Notes: a model not told the origin generated them from the letters alone. DNA of 64,000 bases from Geothrix terrae (GCF_022808775.1 NZ_JAKZLA010000004.1:248001-312000), one strand, 5' to 3'; positions 53,485 to 64,000 are shown, counted from the stretch's first letter. Program-made: numbers and translations.

Positions 53485-55020
53485 TCAGCGCTCGGTCCCA
53501 GCCAGCCGGCCCAGCTCCAGCGCGAAGCGCACCTGCTGCATCAGGCCCGCCAGGTTCCAGGCGGGGTCATAGCGGTCCGAAGGGCGGTGGTAGTGGTTCA
53601 GGAAGTCCGAGGCCTTCGCCTGGGCCGCGGCCTTATCGCCCAGGTAGTCCCAGCCGCCGTCCAGCGAGAAGCCCGGCGACAGGGCGGGCACGCCCGCCTT
53701 CATGAAGGGGAAGTGGTCCGAGCGGAAGCAGAGGCCCGCGGGGTCCGCCTTCGGCGGCGTGATCACCAGGCCCGACGCGGCTGCCGCCCGGGCGCAGAGG
53801 GCGCGGGTGGCCGGATCATCCGACCCCAGCAGACCGATGTCGCGGGTGGGCCCCACCACGTTCAGGCTTTCGAGGTTGATGACAAGCCGGGTCTTCGCCA
53901 GCGGCCGCAGGGGCGAGGCCACGTAAGCCGAGGAGCCCAGCAGTCCCTGCTCCTCCCCGCACGGGAAGAGGAACAGCACGCTCCGCGGGAGGGGCTGGGT
54001 CGCCAGTGCCTTCGCCAGGGCCAGCACTGCGGCGCAGCCCGTGGCGTTGTCCACGGCGCCGCTGTAGATGGCCCCGTCCGGCGCCTTGCCGAAGTGGTCC
54101 CAGTGGGCCGAGTAGATCACGCACTCGTCGCGGAGGGCGGGGTCTGTGCCCGGCAGGAGGCCAGCCACATTCCACTGGTCCAAGGACCGGACAACGGAGC
54201 GCAGCGTCCCCTCGGCGCGAAGGGTCAGCGGCACGGGACGGAAGCCCTGGGCATCGGCGCTGGCGGCCAGGGCCCGGAAATCCTGGCCTGCCGCGGCGAA
54301 GAGACGGGTGGCGAAGGCTTCGGTGATCCACCCTTGCAGGGCGCCGGACTGGCCTGAACCCTGCTGCTGGAAGCGCTCGCCGGCCCAACCGTTCCGGACC
54401 ACGGTCCAGCCATAGCCGGCGGAGGCGTCCGTGTGCACCAGCAGCGCGCCTGCGGCGCCTCGGCGGCGGGCCTCCTCGAACTTGTAGGTCCACCGGCCCT
54501 CGTAGTTCTCGGGCTGGCAGCAGAGGGGCCTGGGCTGGCCCCCCTTGCGGTCGCCCACGAGCATGACCAGGATCTTGCCGCGCACATCCGTTCCCTTGTA
54601 GTCATCCCGGCGACCATCGGGGGCGGCGATGCCATGGCCCACGAAGACCAGGGAGGCGTCCACAGCGAGGCTGGGCTCGGCCCCGGCCGCGCCCACCACG
54701 AGATCAGCCCCTAGTACGGCCGCTGTGCCACCCTTCGGCGTCTCGAAGCTGAGACTGCTGGCAGCCGCGTCCAGGCGGACGCCCGCTAGCCGTACGGTCT
54801 GGCGGTAGCTGGTGCCATTGGCAGGCTGGAGACCCATCACCTGCAGCTGGGTTTCCAGATACCGCACGGCCAATTCCCCGCCGCGCTGGCCGGTGCCGCG
54901 GCCCTCCAGCACATCATCCGCCAGGAAGGCCAGGTGGGCGCGCAGGGCGCCTTCCTCCACCGGGGAGCGCTGGGCCAGCAGGCTCGAGCAGGCGAGGGCG
55001 AGGCAGAGGATGGTTCGCAT
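53485..55020 (-). CDS. M28-family zinc aminopeptidase, exported
   Basis: 511 residues with a signal peptide (TILCLALACSSLLAQ). N-terminal and inserted PA-like domain (about residues 95-240), then the M28 peptidase core with the full di-zinc set: YSAHWDHFG (His, Asp), VDNATGCAAVL (Asp), FPCGEEQGLLGS (Glu pair), NLES and RSDHFPFMKAG (His). It should remove N-terminal residues from peptides in the periplasm or outside the cell. Start ATG 55020 has GGAG six bases upstream. Divergent from the tricorn-like protease, with 130 bases between them. Confidence 0.92.
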   Translation of the reverse strand: MRTILCLALACSSLLAQRSPVEEGALRAHLAFLADDVLEGRGTGQRGGELAVRYLETQLQVMGLQPANGTSYRQTVRLAGVRLDAAASSLSFETPKGGTAAVLGADLVVGAAGAEPSLAVDASLVFVGHGIAAPDGRRDDYKGTDVRGKILVMLVGDRKGGQPRPLCCQPENYEGRWTYKFEEARRRGAAGALLVHTDASAGYGWTVVRNGWAGERFQQQGSGQSGALQGWITEAFATRLFAAAGQDFRALAASADAQGFRPVPLTLRAEGTLRSVVRSLDQWNVAGLLPGTDPALRDECVIYSAHWDHFGKAPDGAIYSGAVDNATGCAAVLALAKALATQPLPRSVLFLFPCGEEQGLLGSSAYVASPLRPLAKTRLVINLESLNVVGPTRDIGLLGSDDPATRALCARAAAASGLVITPPKADPAGLCFRSDHFPFMKAGVPALSPGFSLDGGWDYLGDKAAAQAKASDFLNHYHRPSDRYDPAWNLAGLMQQVRFALELGRLAGTER

Positions 55021-55113
55021 GGCGGACTCCGGGACCACCTTAGCGCGTCCAACGAGCCGGTGTTGTCCAAGGCAACCGTCCATCCACCCTCAACCTTCCG
55101 GCCTCCTCCTGCG

Positions 55114-55119
55114 TATGCT
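55114..55119 (+). promoter_or_regulatory. Candidate -10 box (TATGCT) for the tricorn-like protease
   Basis: TGCGTATGCTGCC, 31 bases before ATG 55151; AACCTT 16 bases upstream is a weak -35 candidate. Same TATGCT form as before the S9 peptidase. Confidence 0.4.
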
Positions 55120-55150
55120 GCCTGGACCCCTCAGGAACCCGGAGAGACGT

Positions 55151-58100
55151 ATGCGCCTGTTGCCCTTCTTCGCCACCGCCCTCGTCGTGGCGGCTTCCGT
55201 CAGCGCCTCGGCGCAGATCGACGCCCGCCTGATGCGCTATCCCGACGTGTCGGCGACGCAGATCGTCTTCACCTACGCCAACGACCTGTGGATCGTTCCC
55301 AAGGCCGGCGGCACGGCCCAGCGGCTGTCCACCCCCAAGGGCGAGGAGTCCTTCGCCCGCTTCTCACCGGACGGCCGGGAGGTGGCATTCAGCGGCAACT
55401 ACGACGGGAACCTGGATGTCTACACGCTGCCCGTGGCTGGCGGCATCCCTGCACGGGTCACCCACCACCCCATGGCCGATCGCATGGTGGACTGGACCCC
55501 CGATGGCAAGTCCCTGCTCTTCGCCTCGGGCATGGAGTCCGGCAAGGACCGCTTCAACAAGCTCTTCACGGTGGCGAAGGAGGGTGGCCTGCCGAAGGCC
55601 CTGCCCCTGCCCTACGCGGAATTCGGCGCCCTGTCCCCGGACGGCAAGGTCCTGGCCTACCAGCCCATCAGCACGGACTTCCGCACCTGGAAGCGCTACC
55701 GCGGCGGCATGGCTTCGGAGATATGGTTCTACGACCTGGAGAAGAAGACCGCCAGCCGCCTGCCCAGCGAGGGCGGTTCCAACGACTCCCAGCCCATGTG
55801 GTACGGCGGGAAGCTCTACTTCCTGTCGGATCGCGATGCCGTGAAGCGGGCCAACATCTGGTCCTACGATCTGGCCACGAAGGCCTTCAAGCAGATCACC
55901 TTCTTCAAGGACTACGACGCCCACTTCCCCGCCATCGGCCCCTCGGACATCGTGCTCGAGGCCGGCGGACTGCTCTACCGGATCGAGCTGCCTTCCGAGC
56001 ACCTCGTGGAGGTGAAGGTCGAGGTAGTGACGGACCAGGCCACCCTGAAGCCCCGGGAAGAGAACGCCAGCAAGCTCCTGAAGAATCCCACGCTGTCTCC
56101 CCAGGGCAAGCGCGCGGTCTTCGAGGCCCGCGGCGAGGCTTTCTCCGTGCCTGCGGACAAGGGCTACGTGATCAACCTCACGCGCACGCCCGGCGCCGCG
56201 GAACGCTACCCCGCGCTGTCCCCGGATGGGAAGCAGGTGGCCTATTTCAGTGACCGCAGCGGCGAGTACGAGCTGTGCGTACGGCCCGCGGATGGATCCG
56301 GCCAGGAACGCCAGGTCACGCACCTGGGCCCCGGCTTCCGCTACCGCATCTCCTGGTCCCCGGATGGCAAGCACGTCGCCTTCGCGGACCAGGCCATGCA
56401 CATCAACCTCTGCGACCTGGCCACTGGCAAGGTGCAGACGATGGACAAGGGCCTCTTCCTGTCCGATGGCCCCCTGGAGGCCTTCCGCGCCAGCTGGTCC
56501 CCGGACAGCCGCTGGGTCGCCTTCCCCCTCGACACCCCCAACCGCAACAGCGTGATCGCTATCTACGACACGAAGACTGGACAGCGGCACCAGGTGACGG
56601 CGCCCTTCTACAACGCCGGCGACCCCGCCTTCGATCCCGAAGGCAAGTACCTCTTCCTCAGTACCGGCCAGCAGTTCGCGCCCACCTACAGCGACCTGGA
56701 CGGCACCTGGGTTTATGCCGCCACCACCCGCCTGGCGGCCCTGCCCCTGCGCAAGGACGTACCCTCACCCCTGGCCCCCCGCAACGACGCGGACGCGACA
56801 AAGGATGAGAAGGCGAAAGACGAAAAGAAGGAAGCCGGCAATGGAGACGCCAAGAAGGACGCCGACAAGCCCGAAGCTCCCAAGGCCGTGGAGATCGACT
56901 TTGACGGCCTGGAGTCCCGCATGGTGCTGCTGCCTCCTGTGGCCGGCTACTACACGGACCTGGCCGCCACCAAGGGCAAGCTGGTCTACCGTCGCGCCGC
57001 GCAGCTCAACCCCATGGCCGAGACCTTCACGGGCACGCTCTACACCTACAACCTGGAGGAGCGCGAGGAGAAGGCAGTGCTGGCGGACGTGGACGGCGCC
57101 CTTCTCAGCGGGGACGGCAAGAAGGTCCTGGTGAATCGGAAGCAGGAGTACGCCCTCCTGGATCTGAAGCCCGACCAGAAGTTCGAGAAGAAGCTGCCCA
57201 CGGGCGAGCTGATGATGACCGTGGAGCCCCGCGCCGAATGGCAGCAGATCTTCAACGACGCCTGGCGCCTCGAGCGCGACATGTTCTACGACCCCGGCAT
57301 GCACGGCGTGGACTGGAAGGCCCAGAAGGCGCGCTACGGCAAGCTGCTGCAGGACTGCGTCACCCGCGAGGACGTGAACTTCGTCATCGGCGAGCTCATC
57401 TCCGAGCTGAACGCCTCCCACGCCTACCGGGGCGGCGGTGATCAGGAGATGCCGGCCCGGCTCGGTGTCGGCCTCCTGGGCGCGGACTTCGCTCTGGAGC
57501 ACGGCGCCTACCGCATCAAGACCATCCTGCGCGGCGCGGACTGGGACGCCGGCGTCCGCGGTCCCCTGGCCCAGCCTGGCCTCCAGGTGAAGGAGGGCGA
57601 CTACCTCCTGGCCGTGAACCGCATTCCCCTCGATCCCCGCGTGGACCCCTGGGCGGCCTTCCAGGGCCTGGCCGGCAAGACCGTGCTCCTCACTGTCAAT
57701 GACAAGCCCACCCTGGACGGCGCCCGCGACGTGGCGGTGGCGACCGTGGCCAACGACTACCCTCAGCGCTACTGGGCCTGGATCGAGGCCAACCGGCGGT
57801 ACGTGGAGAAGGCCTCCGGCGGCCGCATCGGCTACGTCTACGTGCCCGACACGGGCCTTGGCGGCCAGACGGACCTGGTGCGCCAATTCCGCGGCCAGTG
57901 GGATAAAGAGGGCCTGATCATCGACGAGCGCTTCAACAGCGGCGGCCAGATCCCCGACCGCTTCATCGAGATGCTGGGGCGGAAGACACTCAACTACTGG
58001 GGCGTGCGCGACGGCAAGGACTGGCAGTGGCCCCAGATCGCCCACAACGGCCCCATGGCCATGCTCATCAACGGCTGGAGCGGCTCCGGCGGCGACCTCT

Positions 58101-58426
58101 TCCCCCACTACTTCCGCCAGGCTGGCCTCGGCCCCCTCATCGGCCGGCGCACCTGGGGCGGCCTCATCGGCATCAGCGGCGCCCCCGCTCTCATCGACGG
58201 TGGCAGCGTGACCGTGCCCACCTTCGGCATCTACTCCAAGGAGGGCCAGTGGATCGTCGAGGGCCACGGCGTGGACCCCGACATCGAGGTGATGGACGAT
58301 CCCGCGCTGCTGGCCCAGGGCAAGGATCCCCAGCTCGACCGGGCCATCCAGGAGGTGGAAGCGGCAATCAAGAAACAGCCTGCCGCCACCCGCAAGCCGG
58401 CCTATCCTGACCGCTCCGGAAGGTGA
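55151..58426 (+). CDS. Tricorn-like S41 protease, exported
   Basis: 1091 residues, the usual length for tricorn relatives. Signal peptide (ATALVVAASVSASAQ), two N-terminal beta-propellers with repeated FSPDGREVAFSG/WSPDGKHVAFAD blades, a charged Lys/Glu/Asp-rich linker (about residues 545-580), a C1 domain, PDZ (VKEGDYLLAVNRIPL) and the S41 catalytic domain with nucleophile Ser979 in WSGSGGDLFP. Tricorn proteases cut peptides into short fragments. Start ATG 55151 has GGAG six bases upstream. One base separates it from the MetX-like gene. Confidence 0.94.
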   Translation: MRLLPFFATALVVAASVSASAQIDARLMRYPDVSATQIVFTYANDLWIVPKAGGTAQRLSTPKGEESFARFSPDGREVAFSGNYDGNLDVYTLPVAGGIPARVTHHPMADRMVDWTPDGKSLLFASGMESGKDRFNKLFTVAKEGGLPKALPLPYAEFGALSPDGKVLAYQPISTDFRTWKRYRGGMASEIWFYDLEKKTASRLPSEGGSNDSQPMWYGGKLYFLSDRDAVKRANIWSYDLATKAFKQITFFKDYDAHFPAIGPSDIVLEAGGLLYRIELPSEHLVEVKVEVVTDQATLKPREENASKLLKNPTLSPQGKRAVFEARGEAFSVPADKGYVINLTRTPGAAERYPALSPDGKQVAYFSDRSGEYELCVRPADGSGQERQVTHLGPGFRYRISWSPDGKHVAFADQAMHINLCDLATGKVQTMDKGLFLSDGPLEAFRASWSPDSRWVAFPLDTPNRNSVIAIYDTKTGQRHQVTAPFYNAGDPAFDPEGKYLFLSTGQQFAPTYSDLDGTWVYAATTRLAALPLRKDVPSPLAPRNDADATKDEKAKDEKKEAGNGDAKKDADKPEAPKAVEIDFDGLESRMVLLPPVAGYYTDLAATKGKLVYRRAAQLNPMAETFTGTLYTYNLEEREEKAVLADVDGALLSGDGKKVLVNRKQEYALLDLKPDQKFEKKLPTGELMMTVEPRAEWQQIFNDAWRLERDMFYDPGMHGVDWKAQKARYGKLLQDCVTREDVNFVIGELISELNASHAYRGGGDQEMPARLGVGLLGADFALEHGAYRIKTILRGADWDAGVRGPLAQPGLQVKEGDYLLAVNRIPLDPRVDPWAAFQGLAGKTVLLTVNDKPTLDGARDVAVATVANDYPQRYWAWIEANRRYVEKASGGRIGYVYVPDTGLGGQTDLVRQFRGQWDKEGLIIDERFNSGGQIPDRFIEMLGRKTLNYWGVRDGKDWQWPQIAHNGPMAMLINGWSGSGGDLFPHYFRQAGLGPLIGRRTWGGLIGISGAPALIDGGSVTVPTFGIYSKEGQWIVEGHGVDPDIEVMDDPALLAQGKDPQLDRAIQEVEAAIKKQPAATRKPAYPDRSGR

Positions 58427-58427
58427 C

Positions 58428-59495
58428 ATGCGCCCGATCCGTTCTGCCCTCCTGCTCCTGGCGACCCTGGCCGCCAGCCTGCTCCCGGCCCAGGCACCCA
58501 CAGAGGGCGACGCCCAGCTCCGCGACTTCCGGTTCCAGTCCGGCGAGACGCTGTCCGAGCTGCGTATCCACTACCGCACCTACGGCACGCCGCGGAAGGA
58601 CGCCTCGGGCGTGGTCCGCAACGCCGTGCTCATCCTGCACGGCACCACCGGAAGCGGGGCCCAGTTCATGGGCCCCGCCTTCGCGGGCCAGCTCTTCGGC
58701 CCCGGGCAACCCCTGGATGCCGCGACGTATTTCATCGTGCTGCCCGACGGCATCGGCCACGGGAAATCCAGCAAGCCCAGCGACGGGCTCCACGCCCGCT
58801 TCCCCCGCTACGGCTACCTGGACATGGTGGAGGCCCAGCGGCGCCTGCTGGCCGAGGCCCTGGGCGTGACGCACCTGCGGCTCGTCATGGGCACCTCCAT
58901 GGGCGGCATGCACACCTGGCTGTGGGGCCAGCTCCACCCGGACGGCATGGATGCCCTCATGCCCCTGGCCAGCCTGCCCACGCAGATCGCGGGCCGCAAC
59001 CGCGCCTGGCGGCGCACGGCCATCGACGCCATCCGTCAGGATCCGCAGTGGCTGGGCGGCGACTATAAGACCCAGCCGGGCTCCCTGCGCCTCGCGGCCC
59101 AGATGCTGTGGTTCATGAGCAGCAACTCCGTGCTGCGGCAGGCGGAGACGCCAACCCTGGTCCAGACCGACGCGGCCCTGGACGCCTTCGTGGCGCGCTA
59201 CACGAAGACCGCCGACGCCAACGATGTGCTCTACGCCCTGGAGGCCTCGAAGGACTACGACCCGGGACCGGGCCTGGAAAAGATCAAGGCGCCGCTCCTG
59301 GCCGTGAACTCCGCCGACGACCTCATCAACCCGCCGGAGCTGGGCATCCTGGAGCGCGAGGTCAGGCGAGTGCCCAAAGGCCGCGCCGTGGTGCTGCCGC
59401 TGAGCCCTGAAACGCGGGGCCACGGCAGCCACACGGTGGCGGCGCTGTGGAAGGACCTGCTGGTGGACCTGCTGAAGCGGTCGGAACGCCCGTAG
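58428..59495 (+). CDS. Exported alpha/beta hydrolase of the MetX (homoserine acetyltransferase-like) type
   Basis: 355 residues. The fold and motifs resemble homoserine O-acetyltransferase: LRIHYRTYGTPR, VLILHGTTGS, LPDGIGHGKSSKPSDG, nucleophile Ser in MGTSMGGMHTW, acid in AVNSADDLINPPE and His in RGHGSH. Unlike MetX it begins with a Sec signal peptide (LLLLATLAASLLPAQA) and so acts outside the cytoplasm, which excludes acetyl-CoA-dependent methionine synthesis. It is more likely an exported esterase or amidase. It starts one base after the tricorn-like gene, so the two are co-transcribed. Convergent with the cytochrome gene. Confidence 0.87.
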   Translation: MRPIRSALLLLATLAASLLPAQAPTEGDAQLRDFRFQSGETLSELRIHYRTYGTPRKDASGVVRNAVLILHGTTGSGAQFMGPAFAGQLFGPGQPLDAATYFIVLPDGIGHGKSSKPSDGLHARFPRYGYLDMVEAQRRLLAEALGVTHLRLVMGTSMGGMHTWLWGQLHPDGMDALMPLASLPTQIAGRNRAWRRTAIDAIRQDPQWLGGDYKTQPGSLRLAAQMLWFMSSNSVLRQAETPTLVQTDAALDAFVARYTKTADANDVLYALEASKDYDPGPGLEKIKAPLLAVNSADDLINPPELGILEREVRRVPKGRAVVLPLSPETRGHGSHTVAALWKDLLVDLLKRSERP

Positions 59496-59508: not shown

Positions 59509-59862
59509 TCAGGGCACCTTGAAGGTGAACCGCGTGTGGCAGGGCAGGCAGAGGTTCTCGCTGGCCTTGTGCTCGTGATGGCAGCGGGTGCAGTCCGTCT
59601 GGGTGCCGTAGTGCCGGTTCAGGTGGGGGTTCGTGGGCTTCGCCTGAGCTGTGCGGGCGGCCAGGTCCGCCGGGTCGTGGCAGCCCTGGCACTGGCGGAA
59701 GGGCACGGCCGTGGGCTTGCCGCTCTTGCCGTGGCACTGGACGCAGGTGACGCCGCGCGCCGCGTGCTTCGAGGTCCACGCCGCGGGAGCGGCGCCCAGG
59801 GAGGCTGCCAGCAGGCCGGCGAGGCCGAATCCCAGGATCCGGGAGGGAGTGAGGATGGTCAT
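59509..59862 (-). CDS. Small secreted tetraheme cytochrome c
   Basis: 117 residues with a signal peptide (ILGFGLAGLLAASLGA). Four CxxCH haem sites at residues 40-44 (CVQCH), 58-62 (CQGCH), 91-95 (CTRCH) and 105-109 (CLPCH) make a periplasmic tetraheme resembling the haem domain of Shewanella flavocytochrome c3 and the separate tetraheme Mcc of the methacrylate reductase system. Further histidines (His33, His80, His84, His96, His98) could be distal ligands. It should pass electrons to the flavoprotein whose gene ends 29 bases upstream. Start ATG 59862 has GGAG six bases upstream. Last gene of the operon. Confidence 0.92.
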   Translation of the reverse strand: MTILTPSRILGFGLAGLLAASLGAAPAAWTSKHAARGVTCVQCHGKSGKPTAVPFRQCQGCHDPADLAARTAQAKPTNPHLNRHYGTQTDCTRCHHEHKASENLCLPCHTRFTFKVP

Positions 59863-59891
59863 GTCGTCTCCGTTCGGGCGTCGTCCAGGGG

Positions 59892-61577
59892 TCAAAGGCG
59901 CGCGACGTGGCGGCCCGTCAGGTAGCCGAAGGTGTAGCAGCGCCCCAGGGAGAGGCCGAACACCGTGAGCGGGTAGTCCACGCCGCCGTAGAAGCCGCCG
60001 CCGAGGTTGCCGACGAGGAAGAGGCCCTTGATGGGCTTGCCGTCCGCGTTCAGGGCCTGGTGGTGCTCGTCCACCAGCATGCCGGAGCAGATGGCGGACA
60101 CGCGCACGCGGCGATGGATGCCGTAGAAGGGGGCCTTCAGGATGGGCGCGAGGAAGCTCGCGGGCTTGCCGAAGTCGCTGTCCTTGCCGGAGGCCACCAC
60201 CTCGTTGTACCGCCTCACCGTGGCCACCAAGGTGGCGGGATCCACCTCGAGCTTGCGGGCCAGCTCCTCCAGGGTGCCGGCCTTGTGGGTGTTGACCTGG
60301 GACTCGAACACCCCCTTCTTGGGGCCGGGCTCGTCGGGCATGTAGTTCTTCAGCCCCTCGGGTGGCACCAGCTTGCCCGGCCAGGTGGCCGCCTGGGTCA
60401 TGTAGTCGGCGTCGAAGACCTGCGAATAGTGCCCGGCGTTCTCCGCGTCTTTCAGGTAGTTGTTCAGCAAGGACATCTCCACCGTCTCGTTGACGAAGCG
60501 GCGGCCCTTGCGGTCCACGGCCAGGAAGGGCATGTCGCACATGGAGGCCGGCCCCGCGTCGAAGTCGTGGAGCATCTTGGTGTGCCCGATGGGCTCGAAG
60601 ACGCCGCCCGCCCAGTAGGCCAGCGCGAAGCCGTCCCCGGTCCTGTCCATCTGCTTGCGCTCCAGGTACTTCACGTCGGGGATGAAGTAGTCCGACATGG
60701 CCCTGTTGTTCTGGTAGTCGCCGGTGGCGAGGATGACGCCCTTCTTCGCCAGGAACTTGCGGTACTTGCCGTCGTGGCCCCGGGCGATGACGCCCTGCAC
60801 CTCGCCCGAGCGGCCCTGCACCAGCTGCACGGCGGGCATCTGGAAGAAGAACTTCACGCCCGCCTTCTCGGCCGTCTTGGCCAGGGCCCGCATGCCGTCG
60901 CCGGTGGTGTAGGGCTTCGGGCCGAAGAAGGAGGTGACGTAGCCCATGCTGTAGCCGTTCACCTTGAGAATGGCGCGCTGGGCCGGGCTGCCCTGGTCCA
61001 CCACCGTCGCGCCGCCCTGCTTCGCGCGGTCGATGACCCAGCGCACGGCCTCGCCGGAGTGGTAGGCCCACTGGCGGATCAGCTTGGGGTCGCAGCGGTG
61101 GTTGCTGTCGGCGATGAGGCGCGCCACCAGGGCTTCCACGCCGGCCTTCTCGCTGGCGGCCAGGTCGATGCCGGAACCCGTGTTGCCCTGGGACAGGGCG
61201 AAGGGCGCCTTCTGCACCACGGCCACCTTGGCGCCGTGCTCCGCGGCGGACAGGGCCGCGGGCACGCCCGAGGCGCCGGCACCCACCACCACCACGTCGA
61301 AGGTCAGGGTTTCTGAGATCTCGCGGTCGCGGATGGGCTTCGGCTTGGGCAGGAAGGTCAGCGTGGCGCCGCCGTCCGTGCTGGTGGCGAAGCCCTCCGC
61401 CTTGGGTTCCTTGACGGCCGCGGCCAGGGCCGGGGAAGCCCCCATGCCGAAGAGCCCCACGGCGGCGGCGCCTCCCGCCGCCCGGCCCAAGAAGCTCCGG
61501 CGTGACAGGCCCTGCTCCAGCACCCGGCGCGTGTAGGCGTCCGGCCCCTGCCCTTCCTCTCTCGGTTCATCGCTCAT
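59892..61577 (-). CDS. Tat-exported FAD-dependent reductase (fumarate-reductase-like flavoprotein)
   Basis: 561 residues. A twin-arginine signal (SRRSFLG, Arg26-Arg27, then a hydrophobic stretch to ASPALAAA) is followed by the FAD-binding domain VVVVGAGASGVPAALSAAEHG and the substrate-domain motif GRRFVNE, which holds the family's catalytic arginine. The C-terminal half departs from fumarate reductase: the usual HxTxGG reads SAICSGM and the GGNA region reads YPLTVFGLSLGR. It likely reduces an activated C=C bond in the periplasm, with electrons from the tetraheme protein; the substrate is unknown. Start has AAGGAG eight bases upstream. Confidence 0.88.
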   Translation of the reverse strand: MSDEPREEGQGPDAYTRRVLEQGLSRRSFLGRAAGGAAAVGLFGMGASPALAAAVKEPKAEGFATSTDGGATLTFLPKPKPIRDREISETLTFDVVVVGAGASGVPAALSAAEHGAKVAVVQKAPFALSQGNTGSGIDLAASEKAGVEALVARLIADSNHRCDPKLIRQWAYHSGEAVRWVIDRAKQGGATVVDQGSPAQRAILKVNGYSMGYVTSFFGPKPYTTGDGMRALAKTAEKAGVKFFFQMPAVQLVQGRSGEVQGVIARGHDGKYRKFLAKKGVILATGDYQNNRAMSDYFIPDVKYLERKQMDRTGDGFALAYWAGGVFEPIGHTKMLHDFDAGPASMCDMPFLAVDRKGRRFVNETVEMSLLNNYLKDAENAGHYSQVFDADYMTQAATWPGKLVPPEGLKNYMPDEPGPKKGVFESQVNTHKAGTLEELARKLEVDPATLVATVRRYNEVVASGKDSDFGKPASFLAPILKAPFYGIHRRVRVSAICSGMLVDEHHQALNADGKPIKGLFLVGNLGGGFYGGVDYPLTVFGLSLGRCYTFGYLTGRHVARL

Positions 61578-61624
61578 GTGTCGTCTCCTTGTCACTCGGA
61601 TGCGGGGATCGCCGCGCCCTCAGC

Positions 61625-61792
61625 TCACTCGGCGCGGTCCGTGGCCTCGGCGGTCAGCGCCCGCCCGGCCTTCTTGAATTCGTGGATGCTCTGGCCCAGC
61701 GACTTGCCCAGGCTGGGCAGGCGCGACGGCCCGAAGAAGATCAGCAGCGCGCAGCCGATCGTCAGGATCTCGGTCATGCCCAGGTTGCCCAT
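61625..61792 (-). CDS. tatA: TatA-family twin-arginine translocase subunit (55 aa)
   Basis: 55 residues: a short periplasmic N-terminus, one TM helix (EILTIGCALLIFFGPSRLPS), the hinge FGPSRLPSLGKSLG, and an amphipathic helix QSIHEFKKAGRAL with a brief acidic tail. This is the complete TatA layout, at the short end of the family. TatA forms the pore-like part of the Tat translocon. Start ATG 61792 has GAGGAG about seven bases upstream. It lies 47 bases upstream of the Tat-exported flavoprotein in the same operon; no tatB or tatC is in the window. Confidence 0.9.
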   Translation of the reverse strand: MGNLGMTEILTIGCALLIFFGPSRLPSLGKSLGQSIHEFKKAGRALTAEATDRAE

Positions 61793-61886
61793 GGCTTGCT
61801 CCTCGGATGGAAGCGGCCCCGCGGGAATGCCGGGCGGGAGGGGCCGGGCCGCTTCCAGGGGCCCATCCCGCCCGTTCCCCCCAGGG

Positions 61887-63140
61887 TCAGAAGGTGTAGA
61901 GGATGCCCAGGCCGAAGCCCGTGGTGGAGGCGCCCGGAGCCACGGTGCCCACGGGCGGGAACAGCGCGTAGCTCGCGGACCGCTCGTTGGTCATGCCATA
62001 GACCGAGGCGTAGAGGTCCGCGGACTTGGCGAGGCTGTAGCTGTAGCCCGCGCTCCACTGCGCGCCGCCCAGCCCGTTGGTGGTGGCGGGGCCACCGCCC
62101 ACCACGGTGACGCTGCCGGCGGCCGCCTTGCCGTAGGCGCCGAAGAGCTGGTGCTTCGCCCAGCGCTGCTGGACCAGGACGTACCAGGCGCCGCGCTCGT
62201 AGTGGTTGACCTTCCCGTCAACGGTGTCATCCGTGTCGTAGGCCAGGCGCTCCACGATGGCGGAGATCTTGGTACCCGTGGGGAAGGCGTAGCTGCCCAC
62301 CAGCTCGTGGGCCACGTCCCTGGACGAGGCGTTCGTGGGCGTCGCGCCCGCGGAGCCGCCGAGCTGGGCCAGGCCGAAGTAGTCCTTGTGCTGTTCGTAG
62401 CCGTAGCTGAGGGTGAAGGCGCCGCGCTTGTAGGACAGCAGGGCGGAATACAGCTCGGGGCTGATGGAGGGCACGGTGGCGGAGGCGGTGGTCTTGCCCT
62501 CGTTCACCGAGTAGGCCACGCGGCCCGAGAAGCCGTTCACCTCGGGGCTCCAGTACTGGATGCTGTTGCCCTGCCGCCGGTTGAAGGCGGCGTCGGCCTT
62601 GCCGCTGACGCGGCCGTTCTGGGTGGTGGTACCGGGCACGTTGAAGCCGGGGTTCGCGGTGAGCGCGTTGTCGAAGGGGTTCAGGCCGCGCAGGGCGCCC
62701 ACGAAGAGGATCGGGTACTTGTAGGGCGTGTCCCAGTTGCCGTAGAACACGCGGCCCCAGGGACCTTCCAGGCCCAGGCAGCTGTTGCGGCTGGTGAGGG
62801 AGTTGGGCGCGTCGCCGTCGGGACTCACGGCGCTCTCGATCTGCCAGATGATCTTCAGGTCGTCGCTGACCTTGAAGCTCCCGCGGAAGCCCAGGTTCGA
62901 CGTGCCCGAGGTCATGCGGTTCCGGGCGGCCAGGTTGCCCGCGTCGCCGGTATAGGCGGAGGCGACCACCTGCGTGGCCCCGCCCGTGGCGGGGGACAGG
63001 CCCGGCGCCGTGGCACCGCTGGTCCTGATGTGGTCCACGAAGGGCAGGAAGGTGCCGTAGATCTGCGCCTCGCTCGCCTGGGCGGCGAGGAGCGCGGGCC
63101 AGGCACAGGCCAGGGCGGCGGTGAGGGTTCGGAGCTTCAA
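61887..63140 (-). CDS. Gram-negative general porin
   Basis: 417 residues from a TTG start, supported by AGGAGG six bases upstream and a signal peptide (LTAALACAWPALLAAQA). The chain matches trimeric 16-strand porins of the proteobacterial Porin_4 type: AQIYGTFLPFVDHI as first strand, SNLGFRGSFKVSDDLKIIWQIES, and RVFYGNWDTPYKYP in the constriction-loop area, ending in a terminal Phe (GILYTF). It lets small hydrophilic solutes through the outer membrane. It heads the same-strand run porin-tatA-flavoprotein-cytochrome and may supply the reductase substrate. Confidence 0.9.
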   Translation of the reverse strand: MKLRTLTAALACAWPALLAAQASEAQIYGTFLPFVDHIRTSGATAPGLSPATGGATQVVASAYTGDAGNLAARNRMTSGTSNLGFRGSFKVSDDLKIIWQIESAVSPDGDAPNSLTSRNSCLGLEGPWGRVFYGNWDTPYKYPILFVGALRGLNPFDNALTANPGFNVPGTTTQNGRVSGKADAAFNRRQGNSIQYWSPEVNGFSGRVAYSVNEGKTTASATVPSISPELYSALLSYKRGAFTLSYGYEQHKDYFGLAQLGGSAGATPTNASSRDVAHELVGSYAFPTGTKISAIVERLAYDTDDTVDGKVNHYERGAWYVLVQQRWAKHQLFGAYGKAAAGSVTVVGGGPATTNGLGGAQWSAGYSYSLAKSADLYASVYGMTNERSASYALFPPVGTVAPGASTTGFGLGILYTF

Positions 63141-63174
63141 GACAGACCTCCTCTGTGTTGCCTAGTCGCAACAT

Positions 63175-63187
63175 TTCAACGGTTGAA
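63175..63187. promoter_or_regulatory. Palindromic operator candidate upstream of the porin
   Basis: TTCAAC-G-GTTGAA, a 13-base palindrome 35 bases upstream of the porin start in an AT-richer stretch. It could bind the AraC-type regulator encoded just upstream, although AraC sites are usually direct repeats. No convincing -35/-10 pair was found. Confidence 0.35.
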
Positions 63188-63305
63188 TCCATATATTGAC
63201 CTCTAGGTTTTCAATTCCCGAGGCAAGGCAAGCTTAGACCTCCCGCGTCCGTCCGGCCTGGTACGGAACGGACAATTTCTGGTGAATCCCGTCCTGGACT
63301 CGCCT

Positions 63306-64000
63306 TCAGGTCGCGCTCTCCAGCTGCCGGGTGCGTCGGAAGGCCGAAGGCGTCTCGCCCGTGGCCTTGCGGAAGGCCTTGGTGAAGTTCGAGTGCTCTT
63401 CGCAGCCCAGCAGGGACGCGATCTGCTGCACGCTCATGTCGGTATGCAGGAGCAGCCGCTTGGCCTCCAGCATCACGCGCTCGATGATCAGGGTCTGCGG
63501 CGTCTTGCCCAGTACGGCCTTGCAGGCGGTGCCCAGGCGGCGAGGGGTGCAGCGGAGCTTCCGTGCGTAGAACTCCACCTCCTTCTCCTCCTGGAAGCTC
63601 TTGTCCAGCTGGTGGAGGAAGGCCTGGAAGAGCTTGAAGTCAGCACCGCTCTGGGTCTGGGCCCGGGCCGCCTGTTCCCGGATGCGGGCCTGGAAGAGGT
63701 GCAGGAAGGCCGCCAGCAAGTGCCGGATGGCCGGCCGCGTCTCCTCCCGCGCCACCTGGCCCAGGTCCCAGAGGAGCCGGGCCAGGGCCGACGCCTGGCG
63801 CACCAGCGCGTCATCGTGCAGGGGCAGGTTCGGCGCCGCCAGGAAGTCCGAGAAGACCCAGGAGGCGTCGTCGTCCAGGAAGTCCTCGCCGAAGTCGAAC
63901 ATCCAGCCCTCCGCGGGCACGTCCGGCAGGAAGAGGTGTTTCTTCCCCTTGGCGATGAGCATGACCCAGGGCGCCTCCAAGCGCGTCTCGATGCCGTCCA
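63306..64000 (-). CDS. AraC-family transcriptional regulator (5' end outside window)
   Basis: At least 231 residues; the frame stays open to the right edge, so the N-terminus is missing. The C-terminal AraC DNA-binding domain has both helix-turn-helix units: EEKEVEFYARKLRCTPRRLG and DMSVQQIASLLGCEEHSNFT, ending FTKAFRKATGETPSAFRR. The preceding part contains LPDVPAEGWMFDFGEDFL, as in cupin-like sensor domains. It lies 165 bases upstream of the porin operon on the same strand and is the obvious candidate to control it. Confidence 0.88.
   Translation of the reverse strand, partial: DGIETRLEAPWVMLIAKGKKHLFLPDVPAEGWMFDFGEDFLDDDASWVFSDFLAAPNLPLHDDALVRQASALARLLWDLGQVAREETRPAIRHLLAAFLHLFQARIREQAARAQTQSGADFKLFQAFLHQLDKSFQEEKEVEFYARKLRCTPRRLGTACKAVLGKTPQTLIIERVMLEAKRLLLHTDMSVQQIASLLGCEEHSNFTKAFRKATGETPSAFRRTRQLESAT

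Follow-up and report, generated by a model that had tools for sequence, protein, structure and literature searches.

A conserved, partly exchangeable Geothrix cassette that joins a porin, an extra TatA and a putative periplasmic flavoprotein reductase

Introduction

What would a secreted flavoprotein and its cytochrome gain from a porin gene, a regulator and a Tat component of their own? This question is raised by a locus at the end of a 64,000-nucleotide stretch of Geothrix terrae DNA, which we call the window. A preliminary description had read the locus as a substrate-specific respiratory unit bringing its uptake pore and export component, with alpha,beta-unsaturated acids as the suggested substrates.

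Tat genes beside the genes of Tat substrates are known from phoD-tatAdCd of Bacillus and nosRZDFYL-tatE of denitrifiers. As in the present locus, a Tat component stands next to a Tat substrate, suggesting dedicated export, but the substrates are other ones, and the Geothrix cassette adds a porin, a regulator, a flavoprotein and a cytochrome. Bacilli also have Tat substrate genes beside tatC (PMC3827258). The flavoprotein and cytochrome have a parallel in the Mrd/Mcc methacrylate system of Geobacter sulfurreducens AM-1 and Anaeromyxobacter, where a Tat flavoprotein is likewise paired with a separate secreted tetraheme cytochrome and both genes form one horizontally spread operon; unlike in the cassette, neither tatA nor a porin is reported in the accessible part of that source (PMC4427408). 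Our literature search, beyond whose reach many subscription papers lay, found no paper describing the cassette.

From the sequence, we think it fairly probable that the locus is a periplasmic respiratory cassette, made up of an AraC regulator, a porin, an extra TatA, a FAD reductase and a cytochrome, for an aromatic or enone acceptor. The AraC-type regulator would control the porin, and the porin would admit the electron acceptor through the outer membrane. The secreted four-heme cytochrome would feed electrons to the divergent Tat-exported FAD reductase, so that the acceptor would be reduced in the periplasm. The extra TatA, accompanied in relatives by tatA2 and tatC, would raise or dedicate the capacity to export the reductase, folded and loaded with FAD, while the cassette is expressed.

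Results and Discussion

Gene content and regulation

Five genes occupy 59509-64000 on the minus strand, in the order AraC regulator, porin, tatA1, flavoprotein, cytochrome. The features of the locus and its flank are as follows.

63306..64000, continuing to about 64133 (-): AraC-family regulator, 275 aa at full length, HTH_18
63141..63305 (-): AraC/porin intergenic region, likely porin promoter/operator, from an alignment of 11 loci
61887..63140 (-): outer-membrane porin (Porin_4, PF13609), TTG start, 417 aa
61793..61886 (-): porin/tatA gap, 94 bp, with a strong GC-rich hairpin; hairpins likewise in relatives
61625..61792 (-): tatA1, 55 aa, PF02416
59892..61577 (-): Tat-exported FAD flavoprotein, type A, SRRSFL, 561 aa, PF00890
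59509..59862 (-): secreted four-heme cytochrome c (Cytochrom_c3_2, PF14537), 117 aa, four CXXCH
53485..59495: flank with M28-type peptidase (-), Tricorn-like protease (+) and MetX-like hydrolase (+)

All five genes named in the preliminary description are thus present, down to the TTG start of the porin and the 55 residues of TatA, and each has Pfam support (bits/cut-off: flavoprotein PF00890, 138.9/20.4; TatA PF02416, 55.7/21; porin PF13609, 97.6/27; AraC HTH_18, 82.6/33.6; cytochrome PF14537, 55.5/25). The split layout was also described correctly: the flavoprotein signal carries the Tat motif SRRSFL, and the separate cytochrome gene, encoding four CXXCH motifs, lies 29 bp away. The remaining gaps measure 47 bp (flavoprotein/tatA), 94 bp (tatA/porin) and 165 bp (porin/AraC). 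ATG 61577, which matches the starts in relatives, is a more probable flavoprotein start than GTG 61595; residue numbers of the flavoprotein below are counted from GTG 61595. The AraC gene overruns the window end and is complete at L003:5307-6134 (window about 63306-64133), where an AraC ligand-binding domain is present. Just beyond the window end, upstream of AraC and on its strand, a dienelactone-hydrolase-like gene was recognized by eye (L003:6213-7016).

Across the 11 aligned loci, the AraC/porin region contains conserved blocks, including a GTTGC-N6-GCAAC repeat and a GGAGGTCTGTC ribosome-binding region, which are likely the promoter/operator of the porin. The 94-bp porin/tatA gap folds into its hairpin without a T-run, and in relatives hairpins that differ in sequence occupy the matching place (z -1.8 to -4.8). 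This hairpin may end transcription, attenuate it or stabilize the porin mRNA, and it could divide porin and tatA into two transcripts. Scans for terminator and promoter consensus sequences found nothing, a result of little weight in a high-GC genome.

Distribution and chromosomal site

The flavoprotein class found in the window, type A, is present in 18 of 77 Holophagaceae genomes, where a few of the extra matches are more remotely related, as well as in one distant Acidobacteriota family. The window protein is 98-99% identical to the G. oryzisoli and G. paludis versions. Among named genomes, matches at 67-75% identity come from a Desulfobulbaceae MAG, Desulfosediminicola, a Desulfuromonas MAG and Shewanella fodinae, and more remote ones from Coriobacteriales (51%) and Anaerolineae (41%). 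Shewanella clusters with Desulfuromonas in the flavoprotein tree, which suggests horizontal transfer; a plasmid search returned one distant match (26.9%) and no plasmid carriage.

The complete five-gene order recurs in 12 of the 77 Holophagaceae genomes, spread over two genera (G000, G009, G010, G011, G012, G013, G020, G021, G022, G034, G035 and G070). Confinement to one strain is thereby ruled out, and the arrangement is more than chance, bearing out the expectation of synteny beyond the strain. The cytochrome gene is followed by tatA2 and tatC in G009, G022 and G034, by tatC in G010, G011 and G021, and by tatA2 in G020, G035 and G070.

In Geothrix the usual cassette site has a Tricorn-like protease gene on one side and an M28-type peptidase gene on the other (both named by eye). 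These two genes adjoin directly in the cassette-free genomes G004, G005, G006 and G047, which identifies an empty site. The window lineage has the Tricorn/M28 junction of the cassette-free species; its cassette lies beyond the Tricorn and hydrolase genes, and tatA2-tatC is absent.

Exchange of the reductase within a kept frame

At the usual site in G018 and G036, AraC (63-74%), porin (81-84%) and tatA-tatC are kept, and the flavoprotein is of a different type, B, with its own cytochrome and about 27% identity to type A. G031 has the type B arrangement too, but its contig ends within the cassette. Type A and type B cassettes share the conserved AraC/porin blocks in the 11-locus alignment and do not form two separate clades in the porin tree. 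About 16 bp separate porin and flavoprotein in type B cassettes, with no counterpart of the 94-bp gap. Another genus carries a type C cassette (porin, flavoprotein, cytochrome, tatA, tatC) and a type D cassette (flavoprotein, cytochrome, tatA). In G066 the type C cytochrome carries six CXXCH motifs rather than four (L117:2761-3234).

The locus is therefore a real, conserved and partly exchangeable cassette. The idea of a unit with its own porin and export component stands, the order being kept in relatives that add tatA2 and tatC, but the epithet "substrate-specific" is weakened: AraC, porin and the likely promoter are retained when the reductase is exchanged, so the regulator and the porin may not track the reductase substrate.

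The Tat components

The window genome has one other tatA, located beside its only tatC on a different contig. The cassette tatA is therefore an extra copy and not, as might have been supposed, the only tatA of the genome; a housekeeping tatA next to tatC had been looked for and was found. The window locus itself contains no tatC. Cassettes of relatives do, and those with both tatA2 and tatC carry what appears to be a complete second TatAC. The window TatA scores 46.8 bits against TIGR01411 (tatAE), below the cut-off of 53.9, and tatA1 matches the housekeeping TatA at 38 of the first 50 residues.

Other Tat flavoprotein-cytochrome pairs in Holophagaceae are also linked to tatA or tatA-tatC, several of them with a porin, so a Tat-exported flavoprotein with tatA is a recurring pattern in this family. 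The link is not exclusive, as some extra tatA genes sit elsewhere. Several Geothrix have one away from any flavoprotein cassette (L102, L104, L108 and L121, with a permease-like neighbour in L102 and L104), and in G051 a gene for a Tat-signal protein, a likely different substrate, precedes an extra tatA and tatC (L195:4764-7831). Desulfobulbaceae, Desulfosediminicola, Desulfuromonas and Shewanella retain the flavoprotein-cytochrome pair and have no tatA in its neighbourhood; the extra TatA is thus not essential for exporting the homologue.

The cassette tatC can be strikingly similar to the housekeeping tatC of the same genome, with DNA identities of 100% in G022, 99.2% in G021, 98.8% in G018 and 96.9% in G036. 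Cassette tatC genes of different Geothrix species are mostly about 82-91% identical, reaching 96.8% in the close pair G011/G021, and G009 and G034 lack such likeness to the housekeeping copy (87.9 and 89.5%). In G022 the near-identical tatA-tatC block spans about 1050 bp (L038:9204-10212 against L200:7018-8026); cassette tatA-tatC nearly identical to same-genome housekeeping copies were also seen in L181, L182 and L043. Because the cassette occupies one common site in these species, the likeness is most simply read as gene conversion, with repeated re-capture as a possible alternative.

This near-identity in four species, together with the absence of tatA2-tatC from the window lineage and of linked tatA from the outgroups, would suit an explanation in which the Tat copies are dosage duplicates or recombination-homogenized passengers with no special role for the flavoprotein. 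We consider that explanation unlikely, though a serious competitor, as tatA1 is kept and distinct from the housekeeping gene, the tatA link recurs with several flavoprotein types, and the type C TatC is clearly diverged (about 71%) and forms its own clade.

Active site and direction of the flavoprotein

When profile-aligned with solved structures, the window flavoprotein has Met374 where Fcc3 carries its proton donor Arg402, Ser500 in place of His504, and nothing that corresponds to Arg544. All 22 type A proteins agree, with Met at the first position, Ser (Thr in one) at the second and the third absent. The Arg/His/Arg set is kept in 10 of 10 sampled type B, C and D enzymes; Mrd, too, keeps its catalytic arginines R353 and R501, which type A is without. 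Against the flavocytochrome c flavin subunit family TIGR01813 (cut-off 285.45), the window flavoprotein scores 144 bits, below the cut-off, and types B, C and D score 426-440, above it. FccA and UrdA of Shewanella resemble the cassette enzyme in their FAD_binding_2 fold, multiheme electron donor and periplasmic location, but the heme domain of FccA is fused, its three active-site residues are replaced in the cassette protein, and identity is low.

What type A holds invariant in its 22 homologues is Asp540-Tyr541-Pro542 and Arg552-Cys553. Tyr541-Pro542 aligns with Tyr487-Pro of KstD, a motif that binds the keto group of the substrate, in a weak local alignment with weak E-values; the tagged chain 4c3x numbers this Tyr 507, from which an assumed tag of 20 residues was subtracted. 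The comparison covered Tyr487-Pro, one part of an active site that also includes Tyr119 and Tyr318. Beyond this common C-terminal motif the similarity is weak (118.4 bits against NF009478, below its cut-off of 789). The best NCBIfam match, nearly full length, is the vinyl phenol reductase VprA of Lactiplantibacillus plantarum (NF053717), at 153.2 bits far below the cut-off of 600; we know of no Tat signal or cytochrome partner for VprA. An AlphaFold2 model from 15 sequences reached pLDDT 63.7, with low confidence near the active site.

The KstD-like motif would also fit a dehydrogenase that desaturates its substrate as KstD does and passes electrons through the cytochrome to extracellular electron transfer, and among the hosts are Geothrix and Desulfuromonas, both known as metal reducers. 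We find this improbable: most characterized flavoproteins with multiheme partners are reductases (Mrd, FccA, UrdA), and the KstD match covers part of the site, from a sequence that itself gives no direction.

A further parallel is the Cgr1/Cgr2 cardiac glycoside reductase of Eggerthella lenta, also a Tat flavoprotein with a cytochrome and without fumarate reductase residues; a Tyr shared with KstD proved dispensable in Cgr2, and the backbone of a nearby Gly mattered (PMC5953540). Unlike the cassette enzyme, Cgr2 requires Fe-S clusters, and its closest homologues are less than 28% identical (PMC5953540). The match to the Cgr1-type cytochrome family NF051471 (cut-off 340) reached 26 bits, below the cut-off. 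In the distant Acidobacteriota family, type A is paired with a Cgr1-like cytochrome. This pairing was seen at L053:912-1514 and L053:3287-5344, with an adjacent aldehyde ferredoxin oxidoreductase family gene, and a similar cytochrome occurs in L054.

An ordinary split enoate reductase like Mrd/Mcc or FccAB, acting on an alpha,beta-unsaturated acid beside an incidental porin and tatA, would share the layout of Tat flavoprotein and separate multiheme cytochrome known from Mrd/Mcc (PMC4427408), and the replacement enzymes found at this site do keep the enoate residues, so the cassette frame can serve enoates; it is nevertheless doubtful for type A, given the loss of the residue set in 22 of 22 proteins, a score far under the flavocytochrome c cut-off, and an order, porin included, that is conserved across species. 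The earlier suggestion that the window enzyme reduces such acids in the manner of Mrd or FccA accordingly finds no support, and a simple enoate reductase was judged unlikely from the active-site residues.

Clues to the substrate class

Several neighbours point to an aromatic (or enone) substrate for the proposed reductase. In Desulfosediminicola and Desulfuromonas, sigma-54 activators with XylR_N/V4R, a domain found in sensors of aromatic compounds, are encoded divergently from the flavoprotein-cytochrome pair; the phenol regulator MobR is the best match of one and the second best of the other, both below cut-off. Desulfuromonas has an OprD porin downstream of the pair. The best NCBIfam match of the cassette AraC regulator, also below cut-off, is HpaA, the 4-hydroxyphenylacetate regulator. 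Porin paralogues have as neighbours UbiD/UbiX decarboxylases (best match VdcB/VdcC, hydroxyarylic-acid decarboxylase subunits), aromatic-acid/H+ symporters and URO-D methyltransferases; two others stand beside a riboflavin-type gene (by eye). Judging from these neighbours and the active-site residues, with the named matches lying below equivalog cut-offs, we regard an aromatic or enone-type acceptor as most likely. It might be a phenylpropanoid or vinylphenol from lignin; a simple unsaturated carboxylic acid seems less likely.

Implications

We infer the function throughout, and on that footing the cassette appears to encode a variant split flavin/multiheme respiratory reductase and is larger in relatives than in the window. 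A more elaborate picture, which we put forward tentatively and rate below an even chance, is a fixed frame of regulator, porin, promoter and recombination-homogenized private TatAC that hosts exchangeable reductase-cytochrome pairs, with type A as an undescribed class of aromatic/enone respiratory reductase.

The cassette would combine entry through the outer membrane, export of folded protein and respiration in the periplasm in one inherited, exchangeable unit, and it marks a widespread flavoprotein class, found in Holophagaceae, Desulfobulbaceae and relatives, Desulfuromonas, Shewanella and Coriobacteriales. The near-identical tatA-tatC copies provide a natural experiment on the reasons for Tat gene duplication in bacteria. 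If lignin-type aromatics are indeed reduced, the cassette would represent a route of respiration with relevance for soils and sediments.
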